Position numbers and translations under genes: made by a program. The notes under the pieces were generated by a model. It was not told the DNA's origin. It did not search any database and was given only the letters and a program-made list of their open reading frames with translations. Positions 634 through 23,309 of a DNA stretch of 23,383 nt are shown piece after piece. The DNA comes from a virus. Numbering within the stretch: position 1 is the stretch's first letter; each line of letters begins with the position of its first letter. Location of the stretch: positions 1 to 23,383 of IMG/VR virus record IMGVR_UViG_3300025781_000078. One strand, 5' to 3'.

Positions 634-872
634 CACTCTGCTTCCCTGATCTTCAGCCCGCATCTGGGACAACACACGCCATGTTCCTTGTAGCTGCCAT
701 AGTCACTGTGATCACAGGTCGTGGGAACCAGTCGCTGGCTGCGCTCTAACATGTTCACGATACCCTTGGCTGTGCGCAGGCTATGGTGGCTGGGGCCTCC
801 CATGTACACGCTGGGATGATCCAGCATCCCAGCGATCTGTTGCACGATCAAGTCACGTTCTTCTGCCAGCAT
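633..872 (-). CDS. Small protein with a possible zinc knuckle, 79 aa
   Basis: Start ATG at 872 overlaps the RNA-ligase stop (TGATG) and has GGAG seven bases upstream; a GTG at 875 in the same frame is the alternative. The N-terminal half is helical (LAEERDLIVQQIAGML). The C-terminal part holds CDHSDYG, then HGVCCPRCGLK, an arrangement of cysteines and histidines compatible with a small zinc ribbon. Its position directly behind the RNA ligase suggests a shared role or shared early expression, but nothing in the sequence proves that. No named family recognised. Confidence 0.75.
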   Translation of the reverse strand: MLAEERDLIVQQIAGMLDHPSVYMGGPSHHSLRTAKGIVNMLERSQRLVPTTCDHSDYGSYKEHGVCCPRCGLKIREAE

Positions 873-2131
873 CACGCATCTCCATCAAAGTGGTAGCTCC
901 ACCGTGCGCCTTCCCAAAGGTTGCGCACGCTGTCGATCTTGGTCTGGCTACCCGTGTGGCGCTTGATCATGTCCAACAGCATGGTGCGAGTGTCCTTGCC
1001 GTCAAACTTGCCAAACACCAGCTGAGGAGCGAACGGATCCTGGTCCTTGATGGTAGGCATCCAGTTCAGCGCATAGCCCTTGCGATCCAAGCCAGCGTTC
1101 TGCACCATGAGCCAGTACTTGTCATACTTGTCCACAGAGCTGGCCACGCCCGCCCAGAACAGAGTCTCGAACTCTTCCACGCGCCGGCGGTCGTCCTCCA
1201 GCATGAACGCCTTGACGTCGTCCAGCTTTTCCGTGACCAGCATGTCAACCACGTTCTTCTCATGGGTCAGCATGTCCTTGGCCTTGTGGATGCGCACGTA
1301 CCAGTCACCCTTGACCTTGACCATGTGACCATCGTCAAAGCGGATGATCCAACCCTCGATGCCTTCAGCAGCGCGAGTCTCGGCAATCAAGTGCTCCATG
1401 CTTTCAGCAGTACCAGGATATGCACGAACCACGTCCAGGGCATTGCCTTCGGCTTCTGCACGCATGTCTGCGTAGCTCATGTAGGTACCTTCTACTGTGC
1501 GGCGCACAGCGATCAGCACCAAGCGATCGATCACGTAGTCAACCACGATGCGCTGCTTGCGGCTGCACCATTCAAAGATTGGCGTCCAACCCTGTGCCAG
1601 CTTGCGCTCGGCCCAACGTGCGATGTCAGGGCGCGTGGCGATGAACTCTTCGGCCTGCATGCTGACTTCGGTGATGCCCATCTTGGTGCCCCAGCGTAGG
1701 CCAGCCTCGGTCACCACAGGCGTGATCATGCTGCCGTCTAGCTTTTCAAGGATCACGTGAGGCTGATCAAGATCCACCAAGTGATGCTGCGTCTCGTCGC
1801 GCTCGTTCACGTTGAAGAACTTGTGCAGGCGCCGTGCCATGATGGTGCCATCTGGATTGAACAGCAAGCCGCGGCACTCACGGCGCACAGCAGCCAAGTT
1901 GACCATTGGAGGGCAACGCTGAGATCCACAACCCGCAGCCTGAGACTGCGGCAGCTTGCAGCCCGGGCACCACCATTGATCGTCAGTGACTTCAGGGAAC
2001 GTGTCGTTCATGCTGACCATATAGTTGACCACATAGCCCCAATCGCGCTCAGCGATGATGAACTCGTCGCGGCCCTCAATGGCTGCGCGAACGTCGTCCA
2101 AGTGCCGTATCTCAGGAAATTCGTACTGCAT
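872..2131 (-). CDS. rnlA: T4 Rnl1-type RNA ligase
   Basis: ATP-dependent RNA ligase that joins 5'-phosphate and 3'-hydroxyl RNA ends; in T4 the homologue reseals tRNA cut in the anticodon loop by host nucleases. The nucleotidyltransferase motifs are visible in order: ECRGLLF (85-91), motif I EKLDGSM with the adenylated lysine at K130, motif III FEWCSRKQRIVV (186-197), motif IV EGWIIRF (259-265) and motif V MVKVKGDWY (270-278). At 419 residues it is longer than T4 Rnl1 (374). The extra length includes a cysteine cluster at C55, C58, C68 and C73 ahead of motif I, which looks like a zinc knuckle. CAGGAG sits eight bases before the ATG and a sigma70-like promoter lies just upstream. The conserved motifs make the family assignment secure. 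Confidence 0.95.
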   Translation of the reverse strand: MQYEFPEIRHLDDVRAAIEGRDEFIIAERDWGYVVNYMVSMNDTFPEVTDDQWWCPGCKLPQSQAAGCGSQRCPPMVNLAAVRRECRGLLFNPDGTIMARRLHKFFNVNERDETQHHLVDLDQPHVILEKLDGSMITPVVTEAGLRWGTKMGITEVSMQAEEFIATRPDIARWAERKLAQGWTPIFEWCSRKQRIVVDYVIDRLVLIAVRRTVEGTYMSYADMRAEAEGNALDVVRAYPGTAESMEHLIAETRAAEGIEGWIIRFDDGHMVKVKGDWYVRIHKAKDMLTHEKNVVDMLVTEKLDDVKAFMLEDDRRRVEEFETLFWAGVASSVDKYDKYWLMVQNAGLDRKGYALNWMPTIKDQDPFAPQLVFGKFDGKDTRTMLLDMIKRHTGSQTKIDSVRNLWEGARWSYHFDGDA

Positions 2132-2496: not shown

Positions 2497-2524
2497 ACAA
2501 TAGCACATCTGTCCAGCTTGTCAA
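2497..2524 (-). promoter_or_regulatory. Sigma70-like promoter of the 89-aa gene
   Basis: Minus strand: TTGACA at 2519-2524, 16-base spacer ending TGC, TATTGT at 2497-2502. The TGA stop of the upstream gene (2521-2523) lies inside the -35 hexamer. Confidence 0.85.
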
Positions 2525-3189
2525 CCGTTATTATATGCCTGAGCAAGCTCTGCTAAGTTACTGATATTGCTGTCTCTTTGGCACAGATTTAGGTAGGTTT
2601 TGCGGTCTGTGCTCCATTCGCTGCCCGTCCACCACTCAAAACCAGGCAGATGCGCCTTGTAAGAACTGCTCTGCTCGTAGCCGCTGCCTATGTAGAGATG
2701 GCTCAATCCCACGGTCTTGGCCAGCGCGATCTCATGATCTATCATGATCCTGCCTAGGTTCACGGGCTGGTCTTTGTAGGCGTTGTATTGGGATTCCAAT
2801 CCGCCTGTGTAAGCATGCATTTTGGTGAACCCAACTGGAGATCCAGTGTGGTCTTTGGCTACCAACCATATGGCATCTAGGTCAGCTGCGCCAGGATCAT
2901 AGAGCGGATCAAACCCCTTGCGTTCTAGGTAATCGCGCCAGATGGCCTTAAGCTCTGTGCTATAATCTGTCTCGATGTCAAAGGAATATCCCTGTGTGCT
3001 TGCTGGCCAATCATGATGATCACACGCAAGTCTCGTGCTGCGGCTCTGATACCATCTACCGTCATGCAGCAGCCAGCCCTGTGCCAGTGCCTGCGCATGC
3101 TCATGCGGCTCGCATGACAGATCAGCTCGGTAACAGCATAGGTCATGGCGTTCCTGGGCACCATAGTAATGAGTGTAAGTAACCTGCAT
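2521..3189 (-). CDS. GNAT-fold acyltransferase resembling arginyl-tRNA-protein transferase
   Basis: I place the start at ATG 3189 (MQVTYTHYYG), giving 222 residues; the frame is open further upstream but would run into the divergent gene. Segment ALAQGWLLHDGRWYQSR (34-50) resembles the GWRRSGxYxY part of bacterial Bpt/ATE enzymes. The C-terminal half (VGFTKMHAYTGG, then LSHLYIGSGYEQSSSYKAHL) resembles their transferase domain, in which a GYY-C-MxYK stretch binds aminoacyl-tRNA. ATE enzymes move Arg or Leu from tRNA to protein N-termini, marking them for degradation. The match is from pattern memory and partial; a generic GNAT is possible. Upstream spacing to the divergent gene is only 12 bases and no clear ribosome binding site is seen. 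Confidence 0.6.
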   Translation of the reverse strand: MQVTYTHYYGAQERHDLCCYRADLSCEPHEHAQALAQGWLLHDGRWYQSRSTRLACDHHDWPASTQGYSFDIETDYSTELKAIWRDYLERKGFDPLYDPGAADLDAIWLVAKDHTGSPVGFTKMHAYTGGLESQYNAYKDQPVNLGRIMIDHEIALAKTVGLSHLYIGSGYEQSSSYKAHLPGFEWWTGSEWSTDRKTYLNLCQRDSNISNLAELAQAYNNG

Positions 3190-10608: not shown

Positions 10609-10812
10609 TCACAAGTTGTGGTACATGTCTACGATCTTCTTGATGTCAGGTGTAGTCCTGTCATAGCACTCTCGGTCATGTATGGCTGCGACGACCACAG
10701 CCACTGCTGTTTCCTGCATGTGTTGGCGCAGGATGCTCTTGAACAGATCATACCTGTTTTCGTAGACATGAGATCTCAGCGAATGCAGCTTTAGCGGTAC
10801 TACCTCACTCAT
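10609..10812 (-). CDS. Unknown small protein, 67 aa
   Basis: ATG 10812 (MSEVVPLKLHSLRSH) overlaps the kinase stop by eight bases and has CAGGAG upstream; the frame is open 14 codons further, but that part lies inside the kinase gene. It is a soluble, mostly helical protein (YDLFKSILRQHMQETAVAVVVAAI) with no recognisable motif. It is the last gene of the kinase operon and is followed directly by the GNAT promoter region. Function unknown. Confidence 0.75.
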   Translation of the reverse strand: MSEVVPLKLHSLRSHVYENRYDLFKSILRQHMQETAVAVVVAAIHDRECYDRTTPDIKKIVDMYHNL

Positions 10813-11290
10813 GCGGGGTCTCCTGTTGTGCAGGAGCATGATATATCTCATCAAACCCCTCGGCAGGCGTGGGCGGTTCTATGCTGGCGATCATGCTGGC
10901 CATGACATGCGCAGGGATGGTCTTGCCAGGGCGAGATCCAAGGCGGCGTTCAAGCTCAGCACCATCAGGTGTTGGAAAATACAGAGCGATGCGCTCATAG
11001 CTCTTGGGCACCTGTCCCAGCTTGCCTCGGCGGCTCTTTATCGTGAGGTTGGTCTGGTCCCAGATGATGTCGCGCCGGTCCTTGACGGCCTGCTTGACGT
11101 CCTCGCGCATAGCTGCGTTAGCAGCCTTGATCTCGGCATCAAACACGTCGTTATAGGTCAGGCCCTGCGCAGCTGCCGCAGCTTCGATCTTGTCATCAGT
11201 GCTGGCAACAACCGCATCATGGTTGCGCGACCGGATCCAGGTGCTCTTGCCTGATCCGGGCACACCAATTAGCATGAAAAGCGTGGGCAT
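10805..11290 (-). CDS. Polynucleotide 5'-kinase domain protein (T4 Pnkp N-terminal type)
   Basis: 161 residues forming a single P-loop kinase. Walker A is GVPGSGKS (9-16), followed by ASTDDKIEAA (29-38) where T4 Pnkp has its catalytic aspartate, IIWDQTNLTIKSR around 75-87 and an arginine-rich lid (ERRLGSRPGKT). This is the AAA_33/Pnkp kinase layout that phosphorylates 5'-hydroxyl RNA or DNA ends. T4 Pnkp fuses this to a 3'-phosphatase; here that phosphatase is a separate gene 2.5 kb away (13794-14234). GAGGA precedes ATG 11290, one base after the stop of the small membrane protein. Other small-molecule kinases share the fold, so the ligase and phosphatase genes are what favour end repair. Confidence 0.85.
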   Translation of the reverse strand: MPTLFMLIGVPGSGKSTWIRSRNHDAVVASTDDKIEAAAAAQGLTYNDVFDAEIKAANAAMREDVKQAVKDRRDIIWDQTNLTIKSRRGKLGQVPKSYERIALYFPTPDGAELERRLGSRPGKTIPAHVMASMIASIEPPTPAEGFDEIYHAPAQQETPHE

Positions 11291-13648: not shown

Positions 13649-13794
13649 GTTTCCAGATACCGGCTGACGAGCAGGTGTATCACGTCCGTGCTCATCAGCA
13701 CGAACACTGCGTCCATGAAGCTGAACTGAAACACGGCGCTGGCTGCAGTAATTAACACAGTCTTTCCTATCGCTTGCCATAAGTGGTACCCCAT
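13645..13794 (-). CDS. Small membrane protein, 49 aa
   Basis: ATG 13794 overlaps the phosphatase stop (TGATG). The 49 residues are MGYHLWQAIGKTVLITAAS, then a hydrophobic region through FSFMDAVFVLMSTDVIHLLV and a short polar end. One or two membrane helices are predicted. The longer shifted frame over the same DNA (75 codons, starting inside the phosphatase end) is Arg/Gln-rich and less protein-like, so I prefer this reading. No family recognised. Confidence 0.65.
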   Translation of the reverse strand: MGYHLWQAIGKTVLITAASAVFQFSFMDAVFVLMSTDVIHLLVSRYLET

Positions 13795-14234
13795 CAAAAG
13801 TCTCCCGGTGCTACCTGTAACACTCGCACACCCTGTGCACGGATGGCATCAACTACCTGCTTGCGATCGTCAAACCACAAGTAAGGTTCACCAAAGTGTG
13901 CCCTGATGACCTCCAAGAGCTCAACCTTGACGACGCTGTCCTGCCTGTAGTCGCGTGCGCTCCTCATATATAAAGCAGACCACGCGACCCCATTGGCTCG
14001 CAACCAACTCTCGGTGACAGCGCGGTTTTCCTCACCGCGTCCACTGCAGAAGATGATGGTATTGCCAGCAGCTGCAAACGTATCGTAGACGAACTTGATG
14101 TCCTCGTAGACGGTGTCCTGCGCCATGCCGGCATTAAACGCACCCCAGTTCTTGGGTTTAGTAGCTACCCAATGCCTGCGGTGTGTGATATTTGCAACAG
14201 TGCCATCGATGTCAAAAACGATAACTTTGGTCAT
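13794..14234 (-). CDS. HAD-type polynucleotide 3'-phosphatase (T4 Pnkp C-terminal type)
   Basis: 146 residues that match the phosphatase half of phage polynucleotide kinases almost end to end: DIDGT with nucleophile D8 and acid D10, the RRHW segment (19-22), CSGRGEENR (63-71), LYMRSARDYRQDSVVK (88-103), WFDDRKQVVD (120-129) and the typical ending LQVAPGDF. It removes 3'-phosphates or 2',3'-cyclic phosphates from RNA ends before ligation. The kinase half is a separate gene at 10805-11290. ATG 14234 has AAGGAG nine bases upstream; the in-frame GTG at 14252 is less likely. It leads the operon with the AAA+ ATPase. Confidence 0.88.
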   Translation of the reverse strand: MTKVIVFDIDGTVANITHRRHWVATKPKNWGAFNAGMAQDTVYEDIKFVYDTFAAAGNTIIFCSGRGEENRAVTESWLRANGVAWSALYMRSARDYRQDSVVKVELLEVIRAHFGEPYLWFDDRKQVVDAIRAQGVRVLQVAPGDF

Positions 14235-14252
14235 GATCTGCTCCTTGATCAC

Positions 14253-16111: not shown

Positions 16112-16319
16112 GCTTGCTGATCCGCCCTATGCGACCAATGATCATGATGTTGATCCATTCCATCGCTAACCACGTCCAAAAATTCATGGGAATGTTCAGC
16201 TGCGGAAACAGAGTGTTGAGGCTCCATATGGTCATGAATGGTGCAAATATCGCCGCAAGTATGAATATCACCACGATCAACAACATGGTGTCCGCGCCAA
16301 CTTTGACCTGCGTGCTCAT
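16104..16319 (-). CDS. Two-helix membrane protein, 71 aa
   Basis: ATG 16319 overlaps the stop of the 58-aa gene (ATGA); an ATG two codons earlier (16325) is the alternative. Two hydrophobic segments, about 12-29 (TMLLIVVIFILAAIFAPF) and 45-60 (MNFWTWLAMEWINIMII), and a basic end (GRIGRISKRA) predict an N-in, C-in hairpin membrane protein. The size and topology would fit a class II holin, but no family similarity is seen and the lysis peptidase is in another unit. Confidence 0.72.
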   Translation of the reverse strand: MSTQVKVGADTMLLIVVIFILAAIFAPFMTIWSLNTLFPQLNIPMNFWTWLAMEWINIMIIGRIGRISKRA

Positions 16320-16492
16320 ACCCATTCCTCCACTATGCCAACCAGTTCAGCAATCAACAGCAGGCCAGCTGTCAATCTCGCATCTGTCAAGGTCAAGACT
16401 AGACCTCCAAATGCCAGTATGCGTATCCCACTCTTCACATATGACATGTAGGTATGCCATGTGCGGTACTTGGCCTCAAATTGGTCGTCCAT
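16316..16492 (-). CDS. Small membrane protein, 58 aa
   Basis: ATG 16492 overlaps the preceding gene by 17 bases and the stop forms ATGA with the next gene. After a polar head (MDDQFEAKYRTWHTYMSY) come two moderately hydrophobic segments, IRILAFGGLVLTLTDA and LTAGLLLIAELVGIVEEW, which may form one re-entrant or two short helices. No family recognised. It belongs to the operon starting at 16631. Confidence 0.65.
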   Translation of the reverse strand: MDDQFEAKYRTWHTYMSYVKSGIRILAFGGLVLTLTDARLTAGLLLIAELVGIVEEWV

Positions 16493-16649: not shown

Positions 16650-16677
16650 AAGATAGCATGCGAACCGCAGTTGTCAA
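16650..16677 (-). promoter_or_regulatory. Sigma70-like promoter of the six-gene Nudix operon
   Basis: Minus strand: GGTTGACA with -35 at 16672-16677, 16-base spacer ending TGC, TATCTT at 16650-16655. The upstream peptidase gene ends GGT TGA, so its stop codon lies within the -35 box. Confidence 0.83.
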
Positions 16678-17333
16678 CCAACTCTGCGTATGGCTATCAC
16701 GCTGCTGGCAGGAAACATGCTGACCTGGACCCTGTTGCTCTGATTGCCGCCCAGCACATAGTAGAACAAGCGCCCGTTGACCTTGGCTGTGCCTACTAGG
16801 AAGCCAACATGCGTGGGACTGCGCCTTCCGCCGTGCAGCACCACTATGTCACCTCTGGCAGCAGTCTTGACAGGCTTACCATAGCGTGCAAAGCTGGTCG
16901 ATTCCAGGCTACCGCTGTAGTCATATCCCATCTTGACCAAGATGGCATTGGCAAACGCAGCGCACCAAGCTGTCCTGCGAGGATTGATGTTCATGTCCAG
17001 CTGATCGCCAAACAGCTGGCTCAACGCTTTGGTATCACGCCGTTCGTCTAAACCTTGGTACTGTTCAGCTGCATCTGCTACCTTGCTCATCGGTCCATCG
17101 GGTAGATCTTCTTCGTCAGTGATAATCCAATGGCCGTGGTGACCTATTGCATGCTTGACATGCCTCTTGTCCTTGCAGGAGCGATGTGCCTTGGTATGGC
17201 AAGATTTATTGTGATGATGGTGGTGCAACGCGGCGGTTGGTCTTGGGTGCTCTGTAGCATGGGCCCCGTGGATGATCGCCGTAGCTGCCCACATCAGCAC
17301 CGCAAGCGGCGCCAAAATAGGCCGAAAAGCCAT
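16674..17333 (-). CDS. Secreted C40/CHAP-type peptidase, likely endolysin
   Basis: 219 residues. An N-terminal signal peptide (MAFRPILAPLAVLMWAATA, cut near AHA-27) is followed by a striking His-rich linker (LHHHHHNKSCHTKAH, then HVKHAIGHHGHW). The catalytic domain matches the TIGR02594-type NlpC/P60 family: nucleophile C124 in TAWCAAF, H175 in PTHVGFLVG and N197 in VLGGNQSNRV. Such enzymes cleave peptide bonds of peptidoglycan; a signal peptide lets the enzyme reach the periplasm without a holin pore. GAGGAG lies before ATG 17333, preceded by a palindrome. The His-rich segment could bind zinc or keep the enzyme inactive; that is speculation. Confidence 0.85.
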   Translation of the reverse strand: MAFRPILAPLAVLMWAATAIIHGAHATEHPRPTAALHHHHHNKSCHTKAHRSCKDKRHVKHAIGHHGHWIITDEEDLPDGPMSKVADAAEQYQGLDERRDTKALSQLFGDQLDMNINPRRTAWCAAFANAILVKMGYDYSGSLESTSFARYGKPVKTAARGDIVVLHGGRRSPTHVGFLVGTAKVNGRLFYYVLGGNQSNRVQVSMFPASSVIAIRRVG

Positions 17334-17350
17334 CTATTCTCCTCGTTGTG

Positions 17351-17366
17351 GTGCAGACGTCTGCAC
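17351..17366. promoter_or_regulatory. 16-bp perfect palindrome upstream of the peptidase gene
   Basis: GTGCAGACGTCTGCAC reads the same on both strands and lies 18-33 bases before ATG 17333, inside the expected leader or promoter. It could be an operator for a dimeric repressor, or a stem. No regulator is identified here. Confidence 0.45.
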
Positions 17367-17442
17367 GCATGTTTTGAGCACTCCTTCCGAGTCGCTATAG
17401 TAATTTATCAATATAGGCTTGGTTAGGTGTACTTTAGCACAG

Positions 17443-18375
17443 CTACACTAGTATAACTCGATGCCCATGCTTTTGCAGCCTGAAATTGCCGATTCGCATC
17501 TCATTGCGGCTGTCGCTGTTTGCATTCAGCAGTCCTCGAGCAAAATCTTCAATGTGATCAGTGCTGTAGGAGTTGATGTTGTTTTCTTCTAACACATGCA
17601 TCAGCAGGTTTTTTAACCTGGTGTGGCTCAGACAACACATCTTGGGCCAATCCAAGCTGCCATCATCTCGCGCAACGTTAGCTAGATCTATCCTTGCTAG
17701 ATCACGTAATAGCTCCAAGCTCTCGTTGACAATGCCAGCACTTCTGACGATGTTTTCTAGAGCTAGGGGGTTCCTGCGCTTGATGTCCGGCATGAGATCA
17801 TTGCGGATCCAGTTGCGATCATACTTGATATCTCTGTTGCTGGGATCTTCCACATATGGGATCTCGCAGATCTTGGCATAGGTGACGATCTCACGCTTGC
17901 TGAGCTCTAGCATGGGGCGGCACAGCAACACCTTGGGATCGTGCCAGCAGGGTGCATATTTCTCCATGCCCTTTAGGCCTCTGATACCGCTGCCGCGGAA
18001 CAGCTTCATCAGCACGGTCTCTGCTTGATCGTCTGCATGATGTGCCAGCACGATGGCTTCTGGGTCCATGCTGGCAAATGCGCTGTAGCGTGCTTCCCTG
18101 GCAGCATTCTCTAGGTTACCGTTGGGATTCACATTGACAGTGAAGGTGTAACCAGGGATGCCCATCTGCATGCATTGCTTGGCAGCAAATTCAGCCCAAG
18201 CGTCACTGTTAGCATTTATGTTGTGGTTGACTGTTACAACACTGAGATTACAACGAAATTTATTGAGATTCTGGCTGATTATATACAGCAATACCATGCT
18301 GTCTACACCGCCGCTGACACCGATCACGGTCTTGCGGGTGCCCAGACGTGCTGCTAGCTCATCTACATCAAACAT
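17443..18375 (-). CDS. tilS: tRNA(Ile)-lysidine synthetase
   Basis: TilS attaches lysine to C34 of the tRNA-Ile that carries a CAU anticodon, so it reads AUA instead of AUG. The PP-loop ATPase motif is VIGVSGGVDSM (SGGVDS at 21-26), and the family signature LAHHADDQAETVLMKLFRGSGIRGLKGM follows near 112-139. EDPSNRDIKYDRNWIRNDLMP is also typical. At 310 residues it lacks most of the C-terminal domain of E. coli TilS (432). The -10 box of its promoter ends six bases before the ATG and there is no ribosome binding site, so the mRNA should be leaderless. AUA is heavily used in neighbouring genes. TilS in a phage is uncommon. Confidence 0.93.
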   Translation of the reverse strand: MFDVDELAARLGTRKTVIGVSGGVDSMVLLYIISQNLNKFRCNLSVVTVNHNINANSDAWAEFAAKQCMQMGIPGYTFTVNVNPNGNLENAAREARYSAFASMDPEAIVLAHHADDQAETVLMKLFRGSGIRGLKGMEKYAPCWHDPKVLLCRPMLELSKREIVTYAKICEIPYVEDPSNRDIKYDRNWIRNDLMPDIKRRNPLALENIVRSAGIVNESLELLRDLARIDLANVARDDGSLDWPKMCCLSHTRLKNLLMHVLEENNINSYSTDHIEDFARGLLNANSDSRNEMRIGNFRLQKHGHRVILV

Positions 18376-18381
18376 GAGCTT

Positions 18382-18409
18382 ACGTTAACACAATCTAAGC
18401 TGCTGTCAA
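18382..18409 (-). promoter_or_regulatory. Sigma70-like promoter of tilS
   Basis: Minus strand: GGTTGACA with -35 at 18404-18409, 16-base spacer ending TGT, TAACGT at 18382-18387. The upstream Nudix gene ends GGT TGA within the -35. The -10 lies six bases from the ATG. Confidence 0.8.
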
Positions 18410-18855
18410 CCTGCTTTACGATGCTTGTTTATGAAGCCCTTGAGGCGCTCTGCTGCATGATCATTGCTCATCAGCATGTCCACGCTGAACGTGGTTGGCT
18501 GAGGCATCTGGTCCAAAGGTTTCCATTGCCATTCAACATGTTCCCAGTTCAGCACTGGCTCAAACTCCTTGGGAACGCAGATAGCATAATTGCGCATGAC
18601 AAAGCGAGGTTCTTCTGTGACGGTTTCGCTGAGCAGTATGCTGGGTTCTTCCTGGAGATCAGCACCAATCTCTTCAACAATCTCGCGATACAGTGCTTGC
18701 CTGTGGTTCTCGCCCGGATCAACATGCCCACCGGGTAGGTCCCACTGCAGAGGATGCTTGCTGAGATCACTGCGAAATATGAACAGGTAGGTGTCGTCCA
18801 ACCTGCTCCATATCAGGGCCTTGCTGGCACCTTGGCTGAGTTCATCTATCTTCAT
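18406..18855 (-). CDS. Nudix hydrolase
   Basis: 149 residues from ATG 18855, eight bases after the preceding stop; no Shine-Dalgarno is visible, so translation may depend on coupling. The Nudix box is complete: GHVDPGE (43-49), seven residues, then REIVEEIGA (57-65). WDLPGG just before it is typical. The short N-terminal part (MKIDELSQGASKALIW) fits a standard Nudix strand arrangement. The enzyme hydrolyses a nucleoside diphosphate linked to another moiety; which one cannot be told. It is the last gene of the operon that includes the DNA glycosylase. Confidence 0.9.
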   Translation of the reverse strand: MKIDELSQGASKALIWSRLDDTYLFIFRSDLSKHPLQWDLPGGHVDPGENHRQALYREIVEEIGADLQEEPSILLSETVTEEPRFVMRNYAICVPKEFEPVLNWEHVEWQWKPLDQMPQPTTFSVDMLMSNDHAAERLKGFINKHRKAG

Positions 18856-19265: not shown

Positions 19266-19827
19266 TATTATCTCCCGCAATCATCTTCTTGGCTATGGTG
19301 ATCATGTGTCCAGACAGGCCTCCTTTATGACCGCGTTTTTCCAACCATCTGCCTATTGTGGCAGCTTTGGTGGCTTTGAGATCATTAGGTGTTGGCCATT
19401 GTTGTGCGATTGCTAATATCAAATCTTCCAAGGGTATGCCTTGGTTCTGCGATTTGAAAACAAAGCTTAATTCAATGAACCACGGATTCGTCAGCAGCTG
19501 ACGATATGCAGCTCGTTTTACTATAGCTTCATTTTCTTGTTTTATCTGTTCTTGCTGCGCGAGCATCTCTAGCTCTTGTGTTTGCTTGATAAGTTCTTGT
19601 TCAGCACGCATATGCTCATCACGCAGTTTCCATTGCTCTTGTATCTTCTTGCGTGCTGTATTCAGTTTTGATTCATGTTGGCGTTGTTTATCTACCTTGC
19701 GCCATAGAGCCTTCTCGATAGCGCGATCCCGCGGGTCTTCATATAAACCTAGATTCCTATCCTTGTTCCTGCCAGGACCTTTGTAGAACTTGCGCTCACC
19801 ACTCTTGGGATCAATAAGCTTAGGCAT
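19246..19827 (-). CDS. Coiled-coil protein of unknown function
   Basis: 193 residues. The first 30 are basic (LIDPKSGERKFYKGPGRNK). A long charged helix runs from about 35 to 105 (KALWRKVDKQRQHESKL, then RAEQELIKQTQELEMLAQQEQ), almost certainly a coiled coil. A globular tail follows (WFIELSFVFKSQNQGIPLEDL, WPTPNDLKATKAATIGRWLEK). The start overlaps the S4 gene by eight bases and the stop overlaps the glycosylase gene by 20. The basic ends suggest nucleic-acid contact, but no family is recognised. Confidence 0.78.
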   Translation of the reverse strand: MPKLIDPKSGERKFYKGPGRNKDRNLGLYEDPRDRAIEKALWRKVDKQRQHESKLNTARKKIQEQWKLRDEHMRAEQELIKQTQELEMLAQQEQIKQENEAIVKRAAYRQLLTNPWFIELSFVFKSQNQGIPLEDLILAIAQQWPTPNDLKATKAATIGRWLEKRGHKGGLSGHMITIAKKMIAGDNNGTATA

Positions 19828-20047
19828 GCACCTTGCTCCCGTCTATGCCCAGCAGATAGAATTGCTTGCGGTCTGGTGTGACGAACACGTATGTGTTGGG
19901 ATCAGTTACTTTCTCATCGTTGATGCGTATGCCACCTTGGGCTATCAGCCTGCGACCTTCGCCCTTGCTCTTGGTCCAACCTAGGTCAACCATGAGGTCA
20001 ACCAGTTCATGCGCTGTACACTGTTCAATGACTTCCTCAACGGTCAT
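19820..20047 (-). CDS. Stand-alone S4 RNA-binding domain protein
   Basis: 75 residues from ATG 20047, which overlaps the preceding 33-aa ORF's stop (TGATG). The segment LVDLMVDLGWTKSKGEGRRL then IAQGGIRINDEKVTDPNTYV is the S4 fold as found at the end of tyrosyl-tRNA synthetase, where it binds the tRNA long arm. No catalytic domain is attached. A free S4 module could bind tRNA, rRNA or mRNA. It lies in the operon with the coiled-coil protein and DNA glycosylase. The target is unknown. Confidence 0.85.
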   Translation of the reverse strand: MTVEEVIEQCTAHELVDLMVDLGWTKSKGEGRRLIAQGGIRINDEKVTDPNTYVFVTPDRKQFYLLGIDGSKVHA

Positions 20048-20148
20048 CACGCCACCAGATTCTCTCGCAGCCATTCCACTCGTTCCATGGCTTCCCAATC
20101 ATCGAGGCGGCCCCAGTCTAAGACCCAGATCTGCTCAGATTCAGGCAT
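20047..20148 (-). CDS. Tiny peptide gene, 33 aa
   Basis: ATG 20148 has the best Shine-Dalgarno in the region (AGGAGG, five bases before it), and its stop overlaps the S4 start (TGATG). The sequence MPESEQIWVLDWGRLDDW then EAMERVEWLRENLVA is acidic and helical with four tryptophans. The strong signals make it more than a chance frame; it may act as a peptide or only couple translation of the S4 gene. Confidence 0.65.
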   Translation of the reverse strand: MPESEQIWVLDWGRLDDWEAMERVEWLRENLVA

Positions 20149-21069: not shown

Positions 21070-22437
21070 TCATCGGTCCACTTTTGGCAGCTTTTTCAAC
21101 GCCTGGACCTCACGTTTATATATTTCTCTTTGCTTCACAGGGTCAGCCAAAGTTGCTTGATGATCAGCGATTGTTGTGGATAGATCAGCTATCTTTGCTA
21201 CCACTTCAGCATAGGTGTCTTTGGCCCAACGATAGCTGGGCAAGCTGGCAATGCGATCTATCTGATCATCGTCTAAGGTGATAGCTGCACACAGCGCCTT
21301 GACCTTGGCAACGATAGCAGCCTTGTCATCGGCGGTGGGCAAGAACTGAGGTAGCTTGCCGTCGATACAGGCCTTGATCGCTAGATTCCAGTTCAATTGG
21401 TAGGTGAGATCAGCTATCATCTTCTCATAGCGCGTCTTGTACCAACCCAAGCGCCATTCAACGAACTCAGCAACCACTTGCTCAGCAGTCTCGAACTGGC
21501 GAACGCTGTTGCCATTCCAATCTAGCACCACGATGCGTTCGGTGGCCTTGCTGCGCAGCTTGAAGTAGTCGATGGCCGTGTCTTCAGTCCAGTCCTTGAT
21601 GGCACCGCGCTTGAAGCGGATCTCGATCTTGATCTCCTTGGTGCTGCGATCAATGTAGGTTTGTATCTTGTCCTCTTCCTCCATGGTGTTCAAGCGTGCC
21701 TTGAACTTTTCGAGGCTGAGATCGGGAGGCAGTTCTTCTACCCACACAGTGCTGCCGTCCAGCCGGCAGCGTCCAGTGAACTCCCAGGTGTTGCCAGCTA
21801 TGTTGCGCACACCGCAGTTTAGATAATCGTATCTTGGTACCAGCTGCTTGATCTTCTTGCCGTCAATGGCACCGATGGTAGCGTCAATGATGTCATCCAG
21901 CGTGCGCGGAAGTATGTCTGTGCTCCAACCCACTGCGATACCACTGATGCCGTTCAGCAGCACCATGGGAACCAGAGGTAGGTAGTTCTTGGGTTCCAGC
22001 ACCGATCCGTCATAGTTTTCTTTAAGCGGCACGATGTCATAGTCTGTAAACACCAGCGCATCTGTCTGCGCATTGCGCTTGAGGTAGGTATAACGTGCTG
22101 CGCCCCAGTCAGTGGGACCAACCTTGGTACCAAAAGCACCAATGCCCTGCAGCAGAGGCACGTTGTTGCAGTAGGGAGCAGCCATCAGGCTCAGCGTTTC
22201 AGCAGCACTAGCATCGCCATGTAGGTATCTATTAGAACTTATCATGAGACCTGCTAGAGATATGGTCTTGATCTTGTCTCCAAGCGGTTTGATTACATCT
22301 AGTCCTTTTCGCTGTGCATCTTTGAGTCCGTCGCACACACTTGGTATTCCGCGAGTTTGGCACACATAAATGGAGTAATCTCGTGATATTTTTTTAATCC
22401 ATTGGCTGGTATCTGATTGATCCTCGTCATCTGTCAT
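21070..22437 (-). CDS. Type II DNA topoisomerase, medium (gp52-like) subunit
   Basis: This is the DNA-cleaving subunit, equivalent to GyrA/ParC and T4 gp52, which breaks and rejoins DNA while the ATPase subunit supplies energy. The start at ATG 22437 (ATGA overlap with the endonuclease) gives 455 residues; T4 gp52 has 442. Visible signatures are SRDYSIYVCQTRGIPSVCDG, the QGIGAFGT loop, the catalytic tyrosine in AARYTYLK (Y116 by this start), the NGISGIAVGWSTDILPR segment and the coiled-coil with hinge (LNTMEEEDKIQTYIDRSTK). The frame is open 11 codons further upstream, inside the endonuclease gene. A GyrB-like partner is not in the window. Confidence 0.93.
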   Translation of the reverse strand: MTDDEDQSDTSQWIKKISRDYSIYVCQTRGIPSVCDGLKDAQRKGLDVIKPLGDKIKTISLAGLMISSNRYLHGDASAAETLSLMAAPYCNNVPLLQGIGAFGTKVGPTDWGAARYTYLKRNAQTDALVFTDYDIVPLKENYDGSVLEPKNYLPLVPMVLLNGISGIAVGWSTDILPRTLDDIIDATIGAIDGKKIKQLVPRYDYLNCGVRNIAGNTWEFTGRCRLDGSTVWVEELPPDLSLEKFKARLNTMEEEDKIQTYIDRSTKEIKIEIRFKRGAIKDWTEDTAIDYFKLRSKATERIVVLDWNGNSVRQFETAEQVVAEFVEWRLGWYKTRYEKMIADLTYQLNWNLAIKACIDGKLPQFLPTADDKAAIVAKVKALCAAITLDDDQIDRIASLPSYRWAKDTYAEVVAKIADLSTTIADHQATLADPVKQREIYKREVQALKKLPKVDR

Positions 22438-23309
22438 ATCTTGACTTGCTTGCAGTTCAATCCGTGCCATCTTCGATAATTTCCTTTGTTCATAGATAAC
22501 CCACAGTGTTCGCAGGATACCATACTGTTCATAATGTTAAGACCATTCTTAGTTCTAGCCAACCGGTCTTCAGCTGACCAATCAGACCATTCTTTGGCAA
22601 CTATTTCTGATCTACGTCCAAAAGTTGCCAATTCGGCATCTGTGTATTCACCCCTGGACATGCGGTTTCGATAAGTTTCACGACCTTTCTGCCACCAATC
22701 TGTGTGATGCACATGCTTCCATAATTTACTACGACGTTCTTTTTCGACCAATTCTTTATCAGTCCATCCCCCGTTACGTTGTCGCTCAAGATTTATTTGT
22801 TCCTGTCTTATTCTTTGACATGCAGTTGGTTTATAATTGACATGTTTTACCAACCCAGATGTTACATCAGCATGATCTATAGGTAATTTTGCAGTTTCAC
22901 CAGTTGGATATCTGTAGATAGCTTTACCTGGTTGACCAGTAGATTTATGTTTGCCTAAAGCCCTATTTTGACTGCGAGTGATACCAGCTTTGGTGTTAGT
23001 TTCTTGGTTTCTTATAATGTAATTGCCAATATTACCATTGTAACCATTTGGATATAACGTGCGATGTTCCTGAATAAGGTCAATCTCTCTGTCGGCTATG
23101 TATCTCACATCATCATGTTCTTCTAACAGTTCTACCTTAAAGTCTGATTCGGTTGCTGTCTTATCATCTAACTCGCGTTTAATCCAAACACTACCTTCTC
23201 CAGACAAATGTTCAGCGAAACGAATGAGGTAATCTTTATTAGATGCTACAACTATACCTATATAGGCTCTGTTATTTTTTACATTCGTTATTTTATAGAG
23301 TTGTGCCAT
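22434..23309 (-). CDS. GIY-YIG homing endonuclease with C-terminal zinc finger
   Basis: 291 residues. The nuclease domain opens AQLYKITNVKNNRAYIG, which contains the GIY-like YKI and the YIG strand, with the catalytic arginine/glutamate region around REIDLIQEHRTLYPNGYN. The middle repeats a DNA-binding layout (WTDKELVEKERRSKLW, YTDAELATFGRRSEIV). The C-terminus has CEHCGLSMNKGNYRRWHG..C, a zinc finger frequent in free-standing phage homing endonucleases. The gene is visibly AT-richer than its neighbours, a sign of recent transfer. GGAG precedes ATG 23309. It is placed directly ahead of the topoisomerase gene, the usual position of a mobile gene next to a conserved target. Confidence 0.92.
   Translation of the reverse strand: MAQLYKITNVKNNRAYIGIVVASNKDYLIRFAEHLSGEGSVWIKRELDDKTATESDFKVELLEEHDDVRYIADREIDLIQEHRTLYPNGYNGNIGNYIIRNQETNTKAGITRSQNRALGKHKSTGQPGKAIYRYPTGETAKLPIDHADVTSGLVKHVNYKPTACQRIRQEQINLERQRNGGWTDKELVEKERRSKLWKHVHHTDWWQKGRETYRNRMSRGEYTDAELATFGRRSEIVAKEWSDWSAEDRLARTKNGLNIMNSMVSCEHCGLSMNKGNYRRWHGLNCKQVKI

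Follow-up and report, generated by a model that had tools for sequence, protein, structure and literature searches.

A TilS gene in a jumbo phage fragment and CAU-anticodon tRNA genes beside tilS in related loci

Background

Why should a phage carry tilS, the gene for an enzyme that is essential in most bacteria? To our knowledge, the CAU anticodon is the sole case in which the amino acid of a tRNA gene cannot be read from its anticodon. tRNA-Ile2 is transcribed with this anticodon and is Met-like until TilS attaches lysine to C34, and a study of 2025 reported that the efficiency of bacterial TilS and the frequency of AUA do not readily correspond (PMC12514573).

The first published phage TilS, reported in 2019, is that of Pseudomonas phage MIJ3; three CAU tRNAs of MIJ3 were listed as tRNA-Met, and TilS was not tied to a tRNA, a role in host viability being proposed instead (PMC6892783). 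The Ralstonia jumbo phage RsoM2USA, reported in 2021, has a TilS (ORF84) and 44 tRNAs, which cover every amino acid except Ile (PMC8504454). For the TilS of chloroviruses, which are algal viruses and not phages, the accessible text of a report of 2020 proposes an aid to the translation of AUA, 12-13-fold commoner than in the host, and describes no pair of enzyme and tRNA genes (PMC7589089). Both phage TilS and the idea of a link between a viral TilS and AUA are already published, and the gene studied here adds an example of phage TilS.

The window, that is, the whole stretch of DNA analysed, is the complete IMG/VR record IMGVR_UViG_3300025781_000078 (23,383 b), and our codon counts for it cover this fragment only. 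A preliminary description, based on the letters of the sequence, recognised tilS in it, noted frequent AUA codons, and proposed that the enzyme supports the phage's own AUA-rich translation.

Results

The window and its relatives

The window covers a fragment of a jumbo phage genome, and the relatives of this phage include Agrobacterium phage Atu_ph07 and Sinorhizobium phage Phosso. Its topoisomerase subunit (Table 1) is 57% identical to that of Phosso (469 kb) and 54% to that of Atu_ph07 (490 kb) in tblastn, and related IMG/VR contigs reach 519 kb (G007), 453 kb (G013), 216 kb (G005) and 170 kb (G012). Since relatives (L181, L186, L192, L193, L286, L303, G005 and G007) have a permuted tmRNA of the alphaproteobacterial kind (Rfam RF04321, RF01849), an alphaproteobacterial host of the window phage is plausible. 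The tmRNA tags in these relatives include AANDNAAFENELLAA. tRNAs with a CUA anticodon (amber suppressor-like, named tRNA-Pyl by ARAGORN) occur in the sets of G007, G013, G056 and Phosso.

The window also has a split tRNA-repair set, in which the Rnl1-type ligase, the AAA_33 kinase and the PNKP-type phosphatase are separate genes. Its GIY-YIG homing endonuclease recurs in the related locus L005, with 100% identity in the best segment.

Table 1. Features of the window referred to in the text
Feature	Position	Strand	Remarks
T4 Rnl1-type RNA ligase	872-2131	-	
Protein resembling, by eye, arginyl/leucyl-tRNA-protein transferase	2521-3141	-	no Pfam match
AAA_33 polynucleotide kinase	10805-11290	-	
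PNKP-type phosphatase	13794-14252	-	
CHAP-like gene	16674-17333	-	downstream of tilS
Gap downstream of tilS	17334-17442	-	no tRNA (ARAGORN and reading of the sequence); place of the CAU tRNA in short-TilS phages
tilS, long form	17443-18375	-	catalytic N-terminal domain, residues ~14-205; CTD1-like domain, ~206-310
Motif H112-H113-x-x-D116-x-x-E119 through R191	17803-18042	-	aligns with A. aeolicus TilS D137 and R205
PP-loop SGGVDS (ATP pyrophosphatase motif)	18298-18315	-	residues 21-26
NUDIX hydrolase	18406-18855	-	next gene upstream of tilS, spacing 30 nt; PF00293, 4e-15
S4-domain small protein	19820-20098	-	like the C-terminal domain of tyrosyl-tRNA synthetase
Topoisomerase II medium subunit	21070-22470	-	PHROG 551, 2e-121; jumbo-phage clade marker
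GIY-YIG-type homing endonuclease	22434-23309	-	immediately upstream of the topoisomerase subunit gene

The window encodes a TilS that looks catalytically intact

The identification of the gene as tilS held: its product (310 aa) matches the TilS model TIGR02432 with an E-value of 8e-54 (182.4 bits, cut-off 93.6) and Pfam ATP_bind_3 with an E-value of 2e-52. E. coli TilS (1ni5) aligns with residues 11-304 (phmmer, 4e-38). This alignment reaches into the CTD1 region, and the domain is present in the structure model; the match to PF09179, the TilS substrate-binding domain, is weak (0.02) and under the cut-off.

The PP-loop residues S21, G22, G23, D25 and S26 are invariant among 14 long phage TilS and throughout an alignment of 38 phage TilS. 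Residues H112, D116, E119, D177, N180, N188 and R191 are invariant or nearly so across phage and bacterial TilS, and the motif positions are kept over the 38 phage proteins with few exceptions, found among the short forms. By alignment, residues of this region correspond to D137 and R205 in the A. aeolicus enzyme, which we take to be catalytic or lysine-site residues. In the AlphaFold model (pLDDT 88), the six best PDB matches are all TilS (including 1ni5, 2e21 and 1wy5; TM 0.73-0.78), while the other PP-loop enzymes TtuA and NcsA trail at about 0.5. Because the motifs are kept and the fold is closest to solved TilS structures, the broken active site that had been named as an argument against a role of this gene was not found, and the enzyme looks catalytically intact as judged from its sequence.

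The bacterial enzymes of known structure, from E. coli (1ni5), Aquifex aeolicus (1wy5, 2e21, 2e89) and Geobacillus kaustophilus (3a2k), share the fold, the PP-loop and the catalytic motifs with the window TilS, although identity to bacterial TilS is only 22-31%. In its two-domain build the phage protein resembles the Aquifex enzyme (310 versus 317 aa), and it is without the CTD2 of the E. coli and Geobacillus enzymes.

Isoleucine codon use

The counts previously given for two genes were exact (AUA/AUU/AUC: amidinotransferase 10/0/7, phosphoesterase 8/0/9); both genes are among those richer in AUA. Over the 36 genes of the window, AUA makes up 134 of 420 Ile codons (32%), with 59 AUU and 227 AUC. 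Against the expectation from four-fold sites, the excess of AUA is modest (134 versus 111.8, P 0.009) and the AUA:AUU ratio of 134:59 is far off (P 2e-10). The stronger anomaly of the window is the scarcity of AUU, and AUA lies just slightly over the prediction from base composition. The share of AUA is heterogeneous between genes (chi-square test, P 4e-6), from 0-5% in those for the ATPase, PNKP phosphatase, barrel, SPFH and RNA ligase proteins to 60-70% in those for GNAT, p84 and NUDIX2.

Bacterial tilS loci of 51-55% GC (13 loci) average 12% AUA, with a maximum of 18%; thus the use of AUA in the window is high for its GC, as had been supposed. AUA is 4-7% in Phosso (50% GC) and 9% in the outgroup L067, both without TilS, and in TilS-bearing relatives of at least 46% GC it mostly equals or exceeds what composition predicts.

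The order topoisomerase, NUDIX, tilS is conserved among the relatives. In G005 and G006, exactly tilS is missing, so that NUDIX is followed directly by CHAP, both conserved, with 218 b between them. The absence spans positions 16197-16416 of the G005 locus (L019) and likewise lies in that of G006 (L020); G005 is the relative with the strongest preference for AUA over AUU. No TilS was found in all 216 kb of the G005 contig. Nevertheless, AUA is 38% in G005 and G006, the top share among the larger sets and above that of the window, with an AUA:AUU ratio of 3.1 in G005. This ratio is 3.15 in the codon frame and 1.29 and 0.78 in the other frames; because it is raised in the codon frame only, we rejected avoidance of ATT at the DNA level as the cause of the scarce AUU. 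In L322 (75 AUA, 5 AUU), L065/G019 and G005, AUU is strongly avoided and AUA used instead.

Phages with a short TilS and an adjoining tRNA, described below, often avoid AUA (13-23% versus 31-45% expected, or 0.34-0.9 of expectation). As G005 and G006 reach 38% AUA without tilS at the locus, AUA richness is not strictly tied to the gene, and among the relatives compared these two and the short-TilS phages counter a strict rule that tilS causes AUA richness. On the face of it, a phage can be rich in AUA without tilS, although G005 is a fragment and tilS may lie elsewhere in its genome; TilS and AUA use are only loosely associated. The proposal that the enzyme supports the phage's own AUA-rich translation is accordingly sustained in part. 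It agrees with the intact enzyme, with AUA far above that of bacteria of like GC and of TilS-less Phosso and L067, and with the Ile2-type CAU tRNAs of relatives, but not with the AUA-richest G005 and G006, the often AUA-poor short-TilS phages and the small excess in the window.

CAU-anticodon tRNA genes beside tilS

It had been suggested to look for a phage tRNA-Ile(CAU). ARAGORN found no tRNA gene in the 23,383 b of the window, and none was found on the locus stretches searched of the nearest relatives (L002-L009). In other relatives Ile2-type CAU tRNAs were present, several of them beside tilS.

In G007, G009 and G022, a short TilS (~200 aa), which exceeds the cut-off of the TilS model with 128 bits, replaces the long tilS after topoisomerase and NUDIX, and a CAU-anticodon tRNA gene lies directly downstream. 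Searching with the short TilS of the G007 kind yielded further phages with a CAU tRNA beside tilS (L282-L288 and L291, L326-L328). We excluded records that are host DNA: AFYI01000001 and CAKLQH020000014, for example, were rejected as phage TilS because ordinary bacterial genes lie alongside. The tRNA is 8-19 nt downstream of the short tilS on the same strand in G007, G009/G022, L282-L284, L285, L286/L287, L288 and L291, and in L282, L285, L287, L288 and L291 it is the sole tRNA on the stretch examined. The order is reversed in L326 and L328, where the CAU tRNA lies 18 nt upstream of tilS in a tRNA-rich region; L327 resembles them, and the called start codon of its tilS falls inside the tRNA.

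Other loci are looser. The CAU tRNA is 4-6 kb from tilS in L289 and L290, 7-10 kb before it in MIJ3 and much more distant in LR756502. Among the long forms, L318 has one ~530 nt upstream, and G013 (453 kb), with 44 tRNA-type genes, has an Ile2-type CAU tRNA ~280 kb from tilS. In bacterial tilS loci, a CAU tRNA occurred within 3 kb in 0 of 80. On uniform placement the chance of each adjacency would be 0.001 to 0.013, and because the loci share ancestry these chances are not independent. The window does not belong to the paired loci, as no tRNA lies within ~50 nt of its tilS, nor in the loci of L002-L009.

tRNA-Ile(UAU), which would decode AUA without lysidine, was observed in LR756502 (L404:17300-17375), LR745206 (L417) and Phosso (L418:13591-13683); the last one (93 nt, with a long variable arm) is doubtful.

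In a tree of the catalytic domain, the long phage TilS are placed close to those of proteobacteria. A single well-supported phage clade unites the short forms of G007/G022, L285-L291, MIJ3, LR756502 and LR745206, and L326-L328 stand apart as a long-branched group. This topology suggests that phage TilS belong to more than one lineage.

Identity of the CAU tRNAs

To assign these tRNAs to Ile2 or Met, we used nearest-neighbour identity and two covariance models (Ile2 and elongator Met), with references taken from bacterial genomes and E. coli tRNA-Ile2 as the annotated anchor. The nearest-neighbour method classified 43 of 43 references correctly on leave-one-out, and placed the tilS-adjoining phage tRNAs 1 to 6.5 identity points closer to Ile2, except that of L327 (-1.3). 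The covariance scores (bits, Ile2/elongator Met) were 91.6/74.8 for L291, 89.2/75.4 for L288, 82.4/69.7 for L326, 78.5/67.0 for L328, 72.6/66.2 for L285, 71.3/65.6 for L327, 79.0/74.4 for L195, 81.0/76.5 for L133 (5236-5312) of G007 and 81.5/76.4 for L163 of G013, with a tie for L286 (80.4/80.9). On reading, the core of the L291 tRNA (positions 8 to ~49) is identical to Mangrovitalea Ile2. As controls, a separate CAU tRNA of G007 (L125_3890) prefers Met (79.9/87.1), and so do initiator tRNAs (e.g. 45.1/67.1).

The margins of Ile2 over Met are narrow, at 3-6 identity points and, for most CAU tRNAs, 4-17 bits; they are modest in half of the cases, and unrelated tRNAs differ comparably (tRNA-Lys of L327, 79.8/67.1, i.e. 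+13 bits). Thus, most of the tRNAs adjoining tilS are likely to be tRNA-Ile2, although this falls short of proof. Two other approaches were abandoned. A log-odds score of Ile2 versus elongator Met made no errors on the references, but 191 non-CAU phage tRNAs averaged +8.7 (SD 19.6), and it was dropped as uninformative in this control. Isotype labels from Blast to annotated phages were not usable either, the best 'tRNA-Ile' match (PBES 02) having a GAU anticodon. The MIJ3 tRNA at 175311 (L403:1312-1388), published as tRNA-Met, scored 91.3 bits for Ile2 and 85.0 for Met.

Discussion

We consider it likely, from sequence and structure comparison, that the jumbo-phage TilS encoded in the window is functional and lysidinylates tRNA-Ile2(CAU), the likeliest substrate being a phage-encoded tRNA, with host tRNA-Ile2 as an additional one. 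During infection, TilS would convert C34 of new tRNA-Ile2(CAU) to lysidine, and the modified tRNA would be charged by IleRS rather than MetRS and would read AUA. Each tRNA receives lysidine just once, so that an extra enzyme would be useful mainly during the synthesis of new tRNA-Ile2; a phage-encoded tRNA would therefore be the likeliest substrate. Surplus phage tRNA-Ile2 would presumably flood the host TilS and be lost to MetRS, which a TilS of the phage's own would prevent. In the window phage, the tRNA-Ile2 served by the long TilS would then be a phage tRNA encoded outside the fragment, as in G013. The enzyme with its intact motifs, its conserved position in the clade and the CAU tRNA genes beside tilS in other jumbo phages can be read from the sequences; from these we infer the activity of the enzyme, a tRNA-Ile2 of the window phage and a benefit for the translation of AUA.

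One alternative, which we regard as unlikely, is that the phage TilS mainly acts on host tRNA-Ile2, keeping up or raising lysidinylation after host shutdown so that AUA-rich genes are translated with no tRNA-Ile2 of the phage. The window and the searched loci of its nearest relatives are free of tRNA genes, bacterial loci of similar GC seldom use AUA, and the idea published for chloroviruses connects their TilS in this way with an excess of AUA over the host (PMC7589089). However, lysidine is stable, so that existing host tRNA needs no new enzyme; furthermore, short-TilS phages have a CAU tRNA adjoining or elsewhere, and the window, being a fragment, may miss a tRNA cluster.

The preliminary description also raised the restoration of a site targeted by host nucleases, and we found nothing that speaks for or against it. 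In a related reading, TilS would counter host anticodon nucleases, together with the tRNA-repair enzymes of the window, by replacing cleaved tRNA-Ile2 or restoring its modification. T4 mends cut tRNA with a ligase and kinase/phosphatase set of the kind found here, but repair by Rnl1 and Pnkp is independent of TilS, the repair genes lie unlinked 3-17 kb from tilS, and we know of no nuclease that targets tRNA-Ile2; this role is very improbable. Equally improbable is a bacterial passenger gene with no lasting role, since, although G005 and G006 have no tilS at the locus, the active-site residues are invariant across relatives down to 42% identity, synteny is conserved, and further jumbo-phage lineages likewise carry tilS.

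Returning to a phage-encoded substrate, we lean, with some reserve, towards a further proposal: several jumbo-phage lineages carry a two-gene cassette of a catalytic-domain-only TilS and its own substrate tRNA-Ile2(CAU), co-transcribed and probably forming a self-contained AUA-decoding unit independent of host TilS. In G007 and its relatives this cassette would have replaced the long tilS in the same neighbourhood, and in the window phage the long TilS would act on a phage tRNA-Ile2 encoded elsewhere in the genome. In the open-access literature searched, we came across no account of tilS and a tRNA-Ile2 gene as a pair in phages.

The TilS of MIJ3 and PA5oct are, like that of the window, from jumbo phages (PMC6892783), but that of MIJ3 is the short catalytic-domain-only form (203 aa) of the short-TilS clade, unlike the long one of the window. 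In RsoM2USA, likewise a jumbo phage, TilS is of the long form (349 aa), and homologs of Atu_ph07 proteins are reported (PMC8504454). The gap at Ile in its tRNA set possibly reflects a tRNA-Ile2(CAU) counted as Met.

Conclusions

Taken alone, the window is of modest interest: a phage TilS that appears intact in sequence, in an AUA-rich genome. The more interesting lead comes from related loci, where the gene pair predicts which annotated phage 'tRNA-Met' genes are tRNA-Ile2, for example in MIJ3 and perhaps in RsoM2USA. A TilS consisting of the catalytic domain only (~200 aa), together with one defined tRNA, is a minimal system for the discrimination of tRNA-Ile2 from tRNA-Met, and tilS with its adjoining tRNA is a natural test of why large phages bear translation genes.
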